Assembly: GCF_022378355.1 (NCBI RefSeq)
Contig: NZ_JAKMAJ010000012.1
Coordinates: forward strand, 87,660-151,659
Direction: 5' to 3'
DNA length: 64,000 nucleotides
From: Brenneria bubanii
GTDB lineage: Bacteria > Pseudomonadota > Gammaproteobacteria > Enterobacterales > Enterobacteriaceae
The notes under the pieces were generated by a model. It did not search any database and was not told the DNA's origin. It saw nothing but the letters and a program-made list of their open reading frames with translations. Numbering within the stretch: the stretch's first letter is position 1; every line of letters begins with the position of its first letter. Below, one piece after another: positions 2,614-7,843 of this stretch. The position numbers and the translations under genes are program-made.

Positions 2614-3825
2614 ATGCAAACATTCGACGTGGTTATTGCCGGCGGCGGCATGGTCGGTCTGGCGCTGGCTTGCGGCCTGCAGGGCAATGGCCTGCGTATT
2701 GCCGTACTGGAGCAAAGACCGGCTGACGCGCAAGCGCTGGGAAAAGAATATGCGCTGCGGGTGTCTGCGATCAATGCCGCCAGCGAACGCCTGCTCCGTC
2801 ATTTGGGCGTTTGGGAAAGTCTGGAGGCGCAACGCATCAGCCCTTACAACGATATGCAGGTCTGGGATAAAGACAGCTTTGGCAAAATCAGCTTCAGCGG
2901 TGAGGAGTTCGGTTTTTCCCATCTCGGCCATATCATTGAAAACCCGGTTATTCAGCAGGCGCTGTGGCAACGCGCGGCTCAACTGAGCGATATCACCCTG
3001 CTGGCGCCCGCCGCGCTGAAGCAGATCGCCTGGGGGGAAAACGAAGCCTTTATTACCCTTGAAGACGGCAGTATGTTAACGACCCGGCTGGTGGTCGGCG
3101 CCGACGGCGCGCACTCCTGGCTGCGCCAGCATGCCGATATTCCCCTGACCTTCTGGGACTACGGCCATCATGCGCTGGTCGCCACGATCCGTACGGCATC
3201 TCCCCATCAATCGGTGGCGCGGCAGGTCTTTCACGGCGACGGTATTCTGGCTTTTTTGCCGCTCGGCGATCCACACCTCAGCTCCATTGTCTGGTCGCTG
3301 TCGCCGGATAAGGCGCAGGCCATGCTGACATCGCCGACCGATGAGTTTAACCGACGGTTGGCGACGGCGTTCGATATGCGTCTGGGGCTGTGCGAACGGG
3401 TAAGCGAACGGCAAGTCTTTCCGTTAACCGCTCGCTATGCCCGCAGTTTTGCCGCCCATCGCCTGGCGCTGATTGGCGATGCCGCGCACACCATCCACCC
3501 GCTGGCGGGCCAGGGCGTCAATCTTGGTTTTATGGATGTGGCGGAATTGATTGCTGAATTGAAACGCCTGCAATCGCAGGGGAAGGACATTGGTCAGCAT
3601 CTTTATCTGCGGCGTTATGAACGCAAACGTAAACACAGCGCCGCCGTTATGCTCGCCAGCATGCAGGGATTTCGTGAGCTGTTTGCTGGATATAATCCGG
3701 CAAAAAAACTGTTGCGAGATCTTGGTTTGATGCTGGCGGACAACCTGCCCGGCGTCAAGCCGACGCTGGTGCGTCAGGCGATGGGGTTAAACGACCTACC
3801 CGAATGGCTGGAGAAAGGGGAATAG
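2614..3825 (+). CDS. ubiI: 2-octaprenylphenol hydroxylase UbiI
   Basis: Flavin hydroxylase that adds the C5 oxygen in aerobic ubiquinone synthesis. The 403-residue product has the N-terminal motif IAGGGMVGLALA, the mid-protein motif VGADGAHSWLRQ and the C-terminal FAD motif GDAAHTIHPLAGQGVNLG, the signature of the UbiH/UbiF/UbiI family. A GGAAGAG ribosome site precedes the ATG. It is a paralogue of the gene just upstream and closes the pepP-ubiH-ubiI group. In E. coli gcvTHP follows; here the next 430 bp contain only a gene relic, so conserved order ends at this gene. Confidence 0.96.
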   Translation: MQTFDVVIAGGGMVGLALACGLQGNGLRIAVLEQRPADAQALGKEYALRVSAINAASERLLRHLGVWESLEAQRISPYNDMQVWDKDSFGKISFSGEEFGFSHLGHIIENPVIQQALWQRAAQLSDITLLAPAALKQIAWGENEAFITLEDGSMLTTRLVVGADGAHSWLRQHADIPLTFWDYGHHALVATIRTASPHQSVARQVFHGDGILAFLPLGDPHLSSIVWSLSPDKAQAMLTSPTDEFNRRLATAFDMRLGLCERVSERQVFPLTARYARSFAAHRLALIGDAAHTIHPLAGQGVNLGFMDVAELIAELKRLQSQGKDIGQHLYLRRYERKRKHSAAVMLASMQGFRELFAGYNPAKKLLRDLGLMLADNLPGVKPTLVRQAMGLNDLPEWLEKGE

Positions 3826-3889
3826 CCATCTGGGGCCGGTCACCTTTGGAACGAAGGCATCCTGAATACCGGTTTTCAGTCCGCCAGAG

Positions 3890-4048
3890 TCATTGCAATA
3901 TTGTAAGCGCGGCTATGAATGTCTCATGAGGAATGACGAGCGCCGCCAACGGGATTATCAGGCCGGAGGCGACCATCAGCAGGAAGATGTTGCGGGGAAA
4001 TCCAGTCCGTAGGGCAAAGGTGGAGCCGTAAAACAAACCTATTTTCAT
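3890..4048 (-). pseudogene. Relic ORF beginning like flavodoxin FldB, fused to a hydrophobic tail
   Basis: A 52-codon minus-strand ORF begins MKIGLFYGST, which closely resembles my recollection of the start of flavodoxin FldB (MNMGLFYGSST in E. coli). After ten codons the similarity stops and the sequence becomes a hydrophobic segment (FLLMVASGLIIPLAALVIP) before a TGA. In E. coli fldB lies near the ubiI/gcv region. I infer a deletion or rearrangement that joined the fldB start to the end of an unrelated membrane-protein gene, replacing gcvTHP and later genes. The rest of 3826-4255 shows no further gene. The FldB call rests on about ten residues and is tentative; translation of the fusion is possible but unproven. 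Confidence 0.4.
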
Positions 4049-4255
4049 CGTGTGTTCCGTAATGCAATGATTCTATGCGCGTGAGCCTTATGGCATCCGC
4101 CCATCAGGATTGTGCATGTTCTGATTTCTTGTACCGGTAATAACGCCACTATACGCGTAGGGTAAACTGTGCGGGTGATTATTGTTTGAAACGAAAGGAA
4201 GCGATGGCCCGCGCGGCGATGGCTCTTCACACATGGGTAAAAGGATTTACGAATA

Positions 4256-5116
4256 ATGACTGAATCGACGATAAGACCTGTCGCGTTGCATTTTCCTCAT
4301 CGCGTTTTTGAAAGCCAGAATAAAATGGATGACTATCAGGCGCCGGACATGCGCTATGGCGACCATAGCGAATCCACCCTCAAAAATATCTTCAGCCTCA
4401 CGGACGTTTCTACGCGGGTTGATCCCTATACACGAGCCGAGCTCAACCATCTCCAATGGACTTACCTGTATGAACTGGGCAGAAGGCCAAATATCAAACA
4501 TCTCACCACCGACGAATGCCTGAACCGCCTGTTCGCCGAGTTCCACGATCTCGCGTGGCCTTTCGCCATGCACGGCCCGTACTCGCCCCTGATCCATCAG
4601 ATGATCGACCATATGCGGCACGGTTACGGCGCGACTTTCCGCAGCCCGCTGCTTGATCAGGCGCTGAGAGAGCAGCTTGCCGGTGATTTGTCGGAAGACA
4701 GCACGGTACTCAATATCAAGGCGTCTCTCCGTGAAAATATTGACTGGAAAAACAAACTACTTCCGGCAGCGACGGAAATTGAAATCAAAAAAGCGATCAT
4801 GAAAAGTATATTGCCGAAGTTTAACAGACCGATTGACAGCGTAAACGGCATGGGCATCACCGTCCATGATATCTGGTCTGCCCAGATCACCCTGAAATCT
4901 CTGCATATTGGCGATAACGACTTCCGGGCGGTGATTCACTACCGGGTGCAGGACCATTTCGGGCTGGATGACGCGGATATTTTGAAGTGGGCATTTCGCC
5001 AGTTTCGTTTCTTTCGCATCTGGTTTGTTCTGCAACACTACGGCCCGCTGGCACAGCGGCCATTTATCAGCGAGATGGAAACCGAGGTGGAAATTAGCGA
5101 TACGAGGGGTATATGA
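4256..5116 (+). CDS. DUF3289 (TIGR03034-type) family protein, possible effector
   Basis: The 286-residue product resembles enterobacterial proteins I recall as DUF3289. The N-terminal stretch FPHRVFESQNKMDDYQAPDM, the central VHDIWSAQITLKSL and VQDHFGLDDADI, and the C-terminal RFFRIWFVLQHYG then RPFISEMETEVEIS are the segments I associate with it. No signal peptide or membrane segment is obvious. No enzymatic motif is recognised and the function is unknown. Its last four bases overlap the start of a DUF943-type gene (ATGA), so the two are translationally coupled. A large soluble protein joined to a small membrane-anchored partner that has been copied three times resembles toxin-immunity layouts; that is inference only. 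The 3' end of this gene is included in the downstream duplications. Confidence 0.7.
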   Translation: MTESTIRPVALHFPHRVFESQNKMDDYQAPDMRYGDHSESTLKNIFSLTDVSTRVDPYTRAELNHLQWTYLYELGRRPNIKHLTTDECLNRLFAEFHDLAWPFAMHGPYSPLIHQMIDHMRHGYGATFRSPLLDQALREQLAGDLSEDSTVLNIKASLRENIDWKNKLLPAATEIEIKKAIMKSILPKFNRPIDSVNGMGITVHDIWSAQITLKSLHIGDNDFRAVIHYRVQDHFGLDDADILKWAFRQFRFFRIWFVLQHYGPLAQRPFISEMETEVEISDTRGI

Positions 5117-5583
5117 AGATTTTATCGAAAAAGCGTGTGATTGCCGTTTTGGCCGTGCTGGCCGTCGTCTACGGTATTATCTGGCTTTCCCGACCAGTAA
5201 AAATCGTGGCGATTCATCAGAAGCAGCATTTCAGTCATGTATTGGTGCTGAACTTTCCGCTGACCAATCGGGGCAAAATCGACTGGTGGCTGAAGAATAG
5301 GGAAATGCTGCAAGAGAAATACGCTATCCCCAAACGCTCGTCTTATGGCTCCTTCACCATCACCTTTTGGGATTTCGGCGAGGGTTATAAGGAAAGTGAA
5401 TATGATCGCCGATGCTTTGAGGATATGCAGACAGAGAAAAACTGCATTGAAAAACAACTTGTTTTCGCTATAGACGACAATGGCAAAGGAGATATTACGC
5501 TTAAAACACCCAGCCAGTGGTACAAACAGCAACCGGACGGGAAAATCGTTCCTTATGAACCCCGCGTGCATATAGTCAGATGA
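5113..5583 (+). CDS. DUF943 family membrane-anchored protein, copy 1
   Basis: A 156-residue protein with a basic start (MKILSKKR), one N-terminal membrane helix of about residues 9-26 and a probably periplasmic domain. Conserved blocks are LNFPLTNRGKIDWWLKN, EKYAIPKRSSYGSF, TFWDFGEGYKE and RRCFEDM, with two Cys (in RCFEDM and KNCIEK) that could form a disulfide outside the cytosol. This matches my memory of enterobacterial DUF943, function unknown. The start codon overlaps the stop of the DUF3289-type gene (ATGA), so the pair is coupled. Two further copies follow. An immunity or chaperone role for the upstream protein is an inference from arrangement. Confidence 0.78.
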   Translation: MKILSKKRVIAVLAVLAVVYGIIWLSRPVKIVAIHQKQHFSHVLVLNFPLTNRGKIDWWLKNREMLQEKYAIPKRSSYGSFTITFWDFGEGYKESEYDRRCFEDMQTEKNCIEKQLVFAIDDNGKGDITLKTPSQWYKQQPDGKIVPYEPRVHIVR

Positions 5584-5742
5584 ATGTCGGCATAAGGAAT
5601 GAGGCTTGCCGCCAGTGGTGAAAGGCGGCTTCAGACTGGCATTGTGCTGCTGGATGTCTTGCTGACGTTATGGCCCGCTGGCTCAGCGGCCGTTTATCAC
5701 CGAGATGGAAACCGAGGTAGAAATTAGCGATACGAGGGGTAA

Positions 5743-6198
5743 ATGATGATTTTATCGAAAAAGCGCGTGATTGCCGTTTTGGCCGTGCTGGCCGCCGTCT
5801 ACGGTATTATCTGGCTTTCCCGACCAGTGAAGATTGTGGCGGTTCATCAAATGCAGCATTTCAGCGATGTGTTGGTGCTGAACTTTCCGCTGACCAACAA
5901 GGGAAAGATCGACTGGTGGCTGAAGAATAGGGAAATGCTACAAGAGAAATACGCTATCCCCAAACGCTCGTCTTATGGCTCCTTCAGCATCACCTTTTGG
6001 GACTTCGGCGAAGGATATAAAGAAGCGGGTAAATACGATCGCCGATGCTTTGAGGATATGCCGGCAGAGAAAAATTGCGTTGAAAAACCGCTTCTTTTCT
6101 CTGTCGATGACAATGGAAAAGGCAGCATCATGCTCAGGACATCTAGTCAACGGTATAGACTGCAACCGGACGGGGAGATTGTTCCTTATTGGAATTAA
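5743..6198 (+). CDS. DUF943 family membrane-anchored protein, copy 2
   Basis: A 151-residue close copy of the preceding gene, with the same helix, the same LNFPLTNKGKIDWWLKN and YAIPKRSSYGSF blocks and the same two Cys. Differences cluster at a few sites (MQHFSD for KQHFSH, YKEAGKYDRR for YKESEYDRR) and at the C-terminus, which is shorter and ends IVPYWN. The 71 bases before the ATG repeat the 3' end of the DUF3289 gene including the GAGGGGTAAATG start context, so the copy carries its own duplicated ribosome site but no longer overlaps an upstream stop. The period from copy 1 is exactly 630 bp, which marks a tandem duplication. Confidence 0.78.
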   Translation: MMILSKKRVIAVLAVLAAVYGIIWLSRPVKIVAVHQMQHFSDVLVLNFPLTNKGKIDWWLKNREMLQEKYAIPKRSSYGSFSITFWDFGEGYKEAGKYDRRCFEDMPAEKNCVEKPLLFSVDDNGKGSIMLRTSSQRYRLQPDGEIVPYWN

Positions 6199-6277
6199 GA
6201 TGGATGTCAGCATAAGGAATGATGCTGGCAAACCGGCCGTTTATCACCGAGATGGAAATTACCAGGGAATGGGCGTA

Positions 6278-6745
6278 ATGAAGATTTTATCGAAAAAGCG
6301 TGTGGCTGCTGTTTTGGCCGTTCTGGCAGTCGTTTACAGCATTATCTGGCTTTCCCGGCCGGTAAAAATCGCGGCGATTCATCAACGCAGTGATTTTAGC
6401 GATGTGCTGGTACTGAACTTTCCATTAACCGACCGGGGAAAGATCGACTGGTGGCTGAAGAATAGGGCGATGTTGAAGGAGAAATACGCTATCCCCAAAC
6501 GCTCGTCTTATGGCTCCTTCAATATCACCTTCTGGAATTTCAGCGAAGGTTACAAGGAAAGTGAATACGACCGTCTGTGCTTTGAAGATATGCCGGCAGA
6601 GAAAAACTGCATTGAAAAACAGCGTTTTTTCTCTATACACGACAATGGCAGAGGAAATATTACGCTTAAAACACCCAGCCAATTATACGAGCAGCAGTCG
6701 GATGGAAAGATCGTCCCTTATGAATCTCAAATGGAAGTCAAATGA
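6278..6745 (+). CDS. DUF943 family membrane-anchored protein, copy 3
   Basis: A 155-residue third copy. I start it at 6278 because MKILSKKRVAAVLA then aligns with copies 1 and 2 and an AGGGA ribosome site sits about 10 bases upstream; the same frame is open much further upstream but that is not homologous. This copy is the most changed (IHQRSDFSDV, NRAMLKEKY, FWNFSEGYKES, ENCIEK region kept). The upstream duplicated piece of the DUF3289 3' end has lost about 12 bases between two GGAAA repeats. Divergence in the presumed periplasmic face with a constant membrane anchor would suit diversification of binding specificity, but this is not shown. Confidence 0.77.
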   Translation: MKILSKKRVAAVLAVLAVVYSIIWLSRPVKIAAIHQRSDFSDVLVLNFPLTDRGKIDWWLKNRAMLKEKYAIPKRSSYGSFNITFWNFSEGYKESEYDRLCFEDMPAEKNCIEKQRFFSIHDNGRGNITLKTPSQLYEQQSDGKIVPYESQMEVK

Positions 6746-6805
6746 AGCCAGCATAAGGTATGACGCTGGCACAGCGGGCGGGGTTGCCCAGTAAGCGCCA
6801 AGGGA

Positions 6806-7843
6806 TTATGCATCCGGCCCGACGCGCACTACCAGTTTGCCGAAATTGTGCCCCTGCAGCAGCCCGATAAACGCCTCCACGGCGTTTTCCAACCCTTCAG
6901 TGACATCTTCCCGATATTTTATTTTGCCTTGCGCCACCCACGGCGAAACGGCACGGGTGAACTCATCAAAGCGGTGTCCGTAGTCGTCAAAAATAATGAA
7001 GCCCTGCATGCGGATGCGCTTTTTCAGAATGGTTCCCATCAGCAGCGGCAGACGATCCGGCCCATCGGGCAACGCGGTGGCGTTGTAGCTGGCGACCAAG
7101 CCGCATACTGGAACACGGGCTGAGGTATTCAATAAGGGCAACACCGCGTCGAACACCTTGCCGCCCACATTTTCATAATAGATATCGATTCCGTCCGGGC
7201 ATGCCGCCGCCAACCTTGCGGCGAAATCCGCCGCGCGATGATCGAGGCAGACATCAAAGCCCAGTTCATCGACCGCATAACGGCACTTCTCCGCACCGCC
7301 GGCGATGCCCACCACCCGGCATCCCTTCAGCTTGCCGAGCTGTCCGACCGTGGCCCCTACAGGCCCTGTTGCCGCCGCCACCGCCAGCGTTTCCCCGGCT
7401 TTAGGCTGTCCAATATCCATCAACCCCATATAGGCGGTGAATCCCGGCATGCCGAGTACCCCCAGCGCATAAGAAGGATTTTGAGGAGAAGCGCCCAGGT
7501 TGCTTAATCCACGGCCATCGGAAATCGCATAATCCTGCCAGCCGCTATAGGCCAGTACCCAATCCCCCACCTGATAATCCCGATGGCGAGAGGCCACAAC
7601 CCGACTAATGGTCGACCCGACCATCACCTCCCCCAGCGCTACCGGTTTGGCATAGGAAGGCGCGTCGCTCATGCGCCCGCGCATGTAGGGATCGAGCGAA
7701 AGGTAAACCGTGCGCAGAAGAACCTGCCCCTCCTTTACGTCAGGGATTGGATGTTGCTCCAGGCGAAAATTCTTATGCGAAGGCGCGCCCTGCGGACGTG
7801 AAGCCAGCACAATCCGGCGATTATTCTGAACTGTTTGCGACAT
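6806..7843 (-). CDS. curA: NADPH-dependent zinc-independent medium-chain reductase, CurA/YncB type
   Basis: A 345-residue member of the leukotriene B4 dehydrogenase / curcumin reductase branch of the MDR superfamily, the same length as E. coli CurA (YncB). Members reduce the C=C bond of alpha,beta-unsaturated ketones using NADPH. The family start (RIVLASRPQGAPSHKNFRLE), SLDPYMRGRMSD, the nucleotide-binding AAATGPVGATVGQLGKLKG (about residues 152-170) and the YYENVGGKVFDAVLPLL block are all present, with no zinc-ligand cysteines in the usual places. An AAAGGAG site lies 7 bases before the ATG. It stands alone, convergent with the DUF943 array. The physiological substrate cannot be told from sequence. 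Confidence 0.88.
   Translation of the reverse strand: MSQTVQNNRRIVLASRPQGAPSHKNFRLEQHPIPDVKEGQVLLRTVYLSLDPYMRGRMSDAPSYAKPVALGEVMVGSTISRVVASRHRDYQVGDWVLAYSGWQDYAISDGRGLSNLGASPQNPSYALGVLGMPGFTAYMGLMDIGQPKAGETLAVAAATGPVGATVGQLGKLKGCRVVGIAGGAEKCRYAVDELGFDVCLDHRAADFAARLAAACPDGIDIYYENVGGKVFDAVLPLLNTSARVPVCGLVASYNATALPDGPDRLPLLMGTILKKRIRMQGFIIFDDYGHRFDEFTRAVSPWVAQGKIKYREDVTEGLENAVEAFIGLLQGHNFGKLVVRVGPDA

Follow-up and report, generated by a model that had tools for sequence, protein, structure and literature searches.

A DUF3289 gene and a recombining array of three DUF943 genes in Brenneria bubanii: a probable type VI secretion effector with its immunity genes

A stretch of 64,000 nucleotides (nt) from Brenneria bubanii (the window; contig NZ_JAKMAJ010000012.1, positions 87,660 to 151,659, assembly GCF_022378355.1) carries one gene of the DUF3289 family followed by three genes of the DUF943 family, all on the plus strand, and it is this locus, a candidate effector of the type VI secretion system (T6SS) with its immunity genes, that is analysed here. 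The DUF3289 gene (4256..5116) is free-standing, encodes 286 amino acids and overlaps, in the letters ATGA, the start of the first DUF943 gene, copy A (5113..5583, 156 amino acids). An earlier note, made from this DNA without database searches, had described a 286-residue protein whose stop overlaps the start of a one-helix membrane protein, and the description holds. Copies B (5743..6198, 151 amino acids) and C (6278..6745, 155 amino acids) follow; the two further copies that the note reported are both present, but with a pairwise DNA identity of 78.4-86.0% among the three they are not nearly identical, and four proteins, not five, were counted at the locus. The start of copy C was placed at 6278 by homology, with Pfam evidence from 6281, the 256-residue open reading frame at 5975-6745 being an upstream extension. 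Before copy B lies a remnant of the 3' end of the effector gene (5669..5746, plus strand; 25 codons and a stop, in frame, two residues changed), before copy C a shorter one of about 35 nt (6224..6258, plus strand), and behind copy C a possible trailing trace of the same tail, 14 nt long and weak (6764..6777, plus strand; E 0.017). The left flank is a gene that we take to be ubiI (2614..3825, plus strand), which marks the insertion site and is present in each of 10 genomes of the genus, this one included; the right flank, on the minus strand, is presumably an alcohol-dehydrogenase-like gene (6806..7843). A search for sigma-70-like promoters in 3820-6850 gave one site, on the minus strand, against 3.8 expected, and none before copies B or C. 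No T6SS spike or tube gene lies between ubiI and the right flank; such linkage is not a strict requirement for a T6SS effector, since orphan effectors have been described (PMC12135965).

The family assignments, which the earlier note had proposed, are borne out for all four proteins. The 4256-5116 protein matches DUF3289 (PF11692) along the full domain with E 4.8e-92 and 308.8 bits against a cut-off of 25, and the NCBIfam model TIGR03034, the YPO3983 family, with 308.4 bits against 156.45, while copies A, B and C match DUF943 (PF06092) with E values of 3.2e-49, 9.5e-51 and 2.5e-47. Each DUF943 protein has a single N-terminal hydrophobic stretch (KD19 peak 2.1-2.3 from residue 8-9) and stays at or below 0.24 past residue 35; copy A is modelled as a helix at residues 6-25 followed by an outer domain that is mostly beta. 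Profile match, one N-terminal membrane helix and a place directly after DUF3289 come together here, the adjacent gene being copy A, with B and C in tandem behind it.

For effector and DUF943 protein alike, the predicted fold finds its best match in one and the same structure, the BtpeA-BtpiA complex of Bacteroides fragilis (PDB 9jdi), with 22% identity over the aligned part for the effector and 11% for DUF943. Beyond BtpeA, the best 12 structural matches of the effector model comprise only the colicin M, pectocin M, syringacin M and PaeM families, and a DHFGLD stretch (residues 233-238), invariant in 14 of 14 aligned DUF3289 proteins, may have a catalytic role. BtpiA comes from another phylum and was not reached by DUF943 sequence: a PDB search with an 18-row DUF943 profile gave no match, and one with copy A returned chance matches alone. 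An open-access literature search on BtpeA returned nothing relevant; the fold link between DUF943 and BtpiA, which the models suggest, appears to be new as far as open-access searches reach, and may be in print elsewhere. It is a tentative idea, with chances well below even, that DUF943 and BtpiA share one ancient immunity fold accompanying colicin-M-like T6SS effectors across phyla, and that DUF943 arrays are recombining libraries that reassort their C-terminal part. A role in anti-phage defence was considered and rejected, as the effector and copy A gave no PADLOC match up to E 1.

The pairing of the two families was surveyed in 149 genomes of the taxonomic family, from 148 genera and with the window genome included. 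DUF3289 occurs in 27 of them and DUF943 in at least 25, all within the 27; the DUF3289 genomes without DUF943 among the matches listed hold one fragment (G027) and one full gene (G093). Matches to DUF3289 merged into 100 pieces, of which the 72 of 700 nt or more were counted, and at least 69 of these have a DUF943 gene no more than 150 nt downstream on the same strand, a lower bound obtained with DUF943 among the best 150 matches listed. Co-occurrence elsewhere had been set beforehand as one point on which the idea of an effector/immunity locus could fail, and it did not fail. Moreover, the distances between effectors correlate with those between their adjacent immunity proteins (Mantel r 0.77 over 51 pairs, 0 of 2000 permutations, genome relatedness being still contained in the figure), with r at 0.75 for between-genome pairs alone. 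The T6SS component TssC was found in 26 of the 27 DUF3289 genomes as against 53 of the 122 others (p 1.6e-7); the sole DUF3289 genome without a TssC match, G134, has two full DUF3289-DUF943 pairs.

Further support for a link with secretion comes from named relatives, for which 14 loci were collected and Pfam was applied to part of them. The earlier note had proposed a search for VgrG or PAAR nearby in other strains, and such neighbours do exist: in Vibrio ruber (L081) DUF3289 is fused to VgrG, and in Winslowiella (L088) Hcp follows the DUF3289-DUF943 pair, while in Intestinirhabdus (L090) the PAAR match ahead of DUF3289 scores under the cut-off. The N-terminal extension of the Mixta protein (L083) has no significant PAAR match. 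Arrays behind a single effector recur across the family, with up to nine DUF943 genes in G103 (the last one broken), six in G086 and four each in G016 and G122, among the matches listed, and effector and immunity genes alternate in chains in G072, G098 and G130. Orphan immunity genes are reportedly the subject of one study in gut bacteria.

The genome that holds the window has a T6SS: TssC is present, TssM, TssK, DotU and Hcp lie in one cluster, two PAAR matches were found, and the C-terminal part of a VgrG stands at the edge of contig C39. Two close hcp-like genes in the T6SS cluster (L054 4542-6728; one of them Pfam-tested) encode proteins with identical first 60 residues. Other members of the two families are scattered through the assembly. 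DUF3289 is broken in L050 (6815-8071), L051 (6539-7171) and L052 (14888-15495), by a stop or frameshift in one and as fragments in two, and shortened at its 5' end in L048, which leaves the window copy as the only complete DUF3289 gene seen. L048 (4209-8933, on G000:C5) and a locus of Tatumella ptyseos (L080 8774-16437) both place DUF3289-DUF943 after what we take to be a yicC-like gene and an integrase-like remnant, which suggests a common insertion spot. Two tandem orphan DUF943 genes of a short type (130-135 amino acids) lie in L049 (7003-7854; G000:C5:176008-176847) with no DUF3289 beside them, and resemble those that follow N-terminally extended DUF3289 proteins (L083, L085, L086). A lone divergent DUF943 gene (L053 7055-7480; G000:C8:55048) lies about 36 kb from tssC, with no DUF3289 found on its contig.

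It is now appreciated that the pair has a published function, contrary to the statement of the earlier note that none was known for either family. In Yersinia, as PMC11148199 describes it, the DUF3289 protein is toxic in the periplasm of E. coli, whose cells become rounded, and the DUF943 partner rescues them; the protein is said to be structurally similar to colicin M, the cited entry 4G76 being labelled PaeM in our structure search. The function of the pair has been in print only since 2024, and by the same account its mechanism needs further experiments. An orphan DUF3289 effector of Aeromonas jandaei is secreted and kills in a T6SS-dependent manner, with a different immunity protein (PMC12135965), a link between DUF3289 and DUF943 is reported for Klebsiella (n = 780; PMC12469244), and DUF3289 appears in other T6SS settings (PMC10763514, PMC10435454, PMC8651086). 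As far as these accounts go, the window locus resembles T6EC1-T6IC1 of Yersinia pseudotuberculosis in its two Pfam families and its membrane-anchored, periplasm-facing immunity protein (PMC11148199). However, the Yersinia effector is a specialised PAAR protein inside a T6SS operon, whereas the window effector is free-standing, away from T6SS genes and followed by three immunity genes. It shares with the A. jandaei effector a place away from tube and spike genes, but the Aeromonas immunity protein, of 95 amino acids, is given three predicted transmembrane helices (PMC12135965).

The three DUF943 genes form a tandem repeat far beyond chance, with 487 of 574 and 459 of 564 bases identical, and the repeat unit consists of the effector 3' tail plus the immunity gene. 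What the earlier note took for a duplicated start region before each extra copy is the 3' end of the DUF3289 gene. GAGGGG or AGGG stands directly 5' of every DUF943 start, for A and B inside the effector tail, and this stretch is probably the ribosome-binding site of the DUF943 genes; an effector tail that carries the ribosome-binding site of the immunity gene would plainly explain why the two travel together. Such a unit appears to be new for the DUF3289-DUF943 family, as far as literature searches reach.

Variation among the copies does rise towards the 3' end (6, 11, 15, 11, 4, 14, 10, 16, 21 and 27 variable bases per successive 48-nt bin), and the earlier note was right about a changing outer part. 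Its view that the copies diverge under selection by variant toxins finds no support in the form given, as the ratios of nonsynonymous to synonymous substitution (dN/dS) of 0.18 for A-B, 0.16 for A-C and 0.13 for B-C are those of purifying selection, though selection confined to a few codons could escape pairwise counting. The idea that the outer part is under positive selection, as it had been stated, was likewise rejected, since pooled dN/dS is 0.32 for columns 1-34, 0.19 for 35-82, 0.11 for 83-125 and 0.24 from 126 to the end (B-C is saturated from column 83 on and gives no value there). With low values in all three pairs, each copy looks maintained. A PHI-type test on 12 copies, the three of the window and nine of a second genome of the genus (G151), found recombination (0 of 1000 permutations as low), and C-terminal types reassort with N-terminal types among them, as judged by eye.

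Some of the history of the cassette can be read from its edges. Within the genus, DUF943 was found in 2 of 10 genomes, the window genome and G151. At the same ubiI site, G151 carries a 286-residue effector and six DUF943 genes, against three in the window. After the sixth copy, an effector stub joins a duplicate of the 3'-terminal 138 nt of ubiI, with a short common TGAA at the junction (by eye), and beyond this scar runs the sequence that directly follows ubiI in a third genome, G150; since it adjoins ubiI there directly, G150 (L096) represents the empty site. The intact ubiI of G151 ends in EWLEKGE, as in the window, and the displaced fragment in EWLDEHH, as in G150. Between the window and G151, the effector genes at the ubiI site have a DNA identity of 96.9%, as against 86.6% for the ubiI genes, and copy B is 98.7% identical to the fifth copy of the G151 array. 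Taken together, these sequences point to the cassette having moved from one species to another through two junctions, one of them homologous and the other illegitimate. Behind the scar, G151 has genes that are presumably chorismate-mutase-like and isochorismate-synthase-like (L091 10371-11941), the same sequence follows ubiI in G150, and both genes are absent between array and right flank in the window.

Another step is suggested by a scrap of 58 nt on the minus strand of the window (4021..4078), the 5' end of a flavodoxin gene that we take to be fldB, with about 28 nt of coding sequence and 30 nt upstream of it. It is 91.4% identical to L051 7330-7387 in the same genome and 92.6%, over 54 nt, to L092 9224-9277 in G151. 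A related cassette lies beside fldB in both genomes; the one in G151 (L092) has three DUF943 genes and an intact effector, 87% identical in protein to the window effector, and the one in the window genome (L051) is degraded. Because it carries this start of fldB, the cassette at ubiI most likely originated as a copy made from the fldB locus, a direction judged from sequence. The move traced from fldB to ubiI, with scar and empty site, is new as far as literature searches reach. Further, the effectors at the ubiI site of the two genomes are 96% identical in protein, and the immunity proteins in the first slot behind them have different C-terminal types, so that the adjacent copy is not obviously the protecting one; it may be the whole array, rather than the adjacent gene, that protects.

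How the extra copies arose and what they do can be explained in more than one way. They could be duplicates that are neutral or serve dosage and play no part against variant effectors, an account with a real but minor chance of being right. It draws on the long identical stretches common to the copies, which recombine, and on the differing copy number at the same site; the low dN/dS across all three copies argues that each is kept functional, and the close identity of copy B between species whose ubiI genes have diverged also speaks against it.

A second possibility is stepwise displacement, in which incoming effector-immunity modules from other strains push old immunity genes back and leave effector stubs behind. 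This is the model from Vibrio cholerae, for which PMC5361080 describes arrays of immunity genes, effector ends that have been displaced, and illegitimate recombination facilitated by homology; effector swapping by the latter is reported for Pseudomonas aeruginosa as well (PMC11751169). The window locus resembles the Vibrio arrays in its immunity genes behind one effector, its effector 3' remnants between them, and its homologous and illegitimate recombination, but those arrays, as described, hold different immunity types in T6SS clusters, whereas here one family has multiplied at a plain chromosomal site. Across the collected loci, which were chosen for arrays and do not represent the family at large (L082, on the same contig as L068, was excluded), a remnant of the effector 3' end lies upstream of 20 of 50 DUF943 genes that have no effector next to them, as against 3 of 45 downstream controls (upstream spans of 2-500 nt, controls of up to 400 nt); two of the three control matches look like true trailing tails (L080, E 1e-8; L091, E 4e-9). 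The nearest relative of such genes lies in another genome for 17 of the 50, as displacement would have it, but in the same array for 31 and elsewhere in the same genome for 2. Moreover, the window and G151 supply 9 of the 20 remnants; outside these two the share is 11 of 38 genes, and two of the 11, in L067 and L089, have a broken effector piece itself directly upstream. In the stub before copy B, 23 of 25 residues still agree with the tail of the present effector, which is the outcome expected of duplication in place. Displacement is therefore rather unlikely as the main route to this array; duplication on the spot is the prevailing route in these array-rich loci, and displacement or import comes second. 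Finally, that the pair is an intracellular toxin-antitoxin module is very improbable, for although the two genes overlap tightly and no T6SS gene lies beside them, the membrane anchor of DUF943, the fusion of DUF3289 to VgrG, the strong association with TssC and the secretion and killing published for Aeromonas (PMC12135965) all stand against it.

Taken as a whole, the locus is best explained, and with good confidence, as a T6SS-type effector accompanied by an array of three immunity genes. The DUF3289 protein would be injected into the periplasm of competing bacteria where, given its colicin-M-like predicted fold, it would most likely cleave the lipid-linked peptidoglycan precursor. DUF943 would be anchored in the inner membrane of the owner, reach into the periplasm with its beta domain and bind the effector. 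The array would have grown mainly by tandem duplication and recombination of the tail-plus-immunity-gene unit, in which the ribosome-binding site of the immunity gene seems to lie within the effector tail, and the extra copies, kept functional, would probably broaden protection or serve as its backup. The cassette would most likely have been copied from the fldB to the ubiI locus, and would have passed between species of the genus. The direct evidence in this analysis consists of the families and their order, the repeat unit, the recombination and purifying selection among copies, the T6SS genes, the fold matches, the fldB scrap, the ubiI scar and the empty site; toxicity, rescue, and T6SS-dependent secretion and killing are published for relatives. 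The earlier note thus named the right kind of locus, as the published pair, the Aeromonas killing, the adjacency, the Mantel correlation and the fold matches agree, though its argument from diversifying selection falls away.

A natural test set is offered by one effector whose three immunity copies have diverged, a sister array with six copies behind a near-identical effector, and a distant complex of solved structure on which contacts can be mapped. The scars, namely the effector tails, the fldB scrap and the ubiI duplication set against its empty site, show immunity arrays forming and travelling outside Vibrio and away from T6SS clusters.
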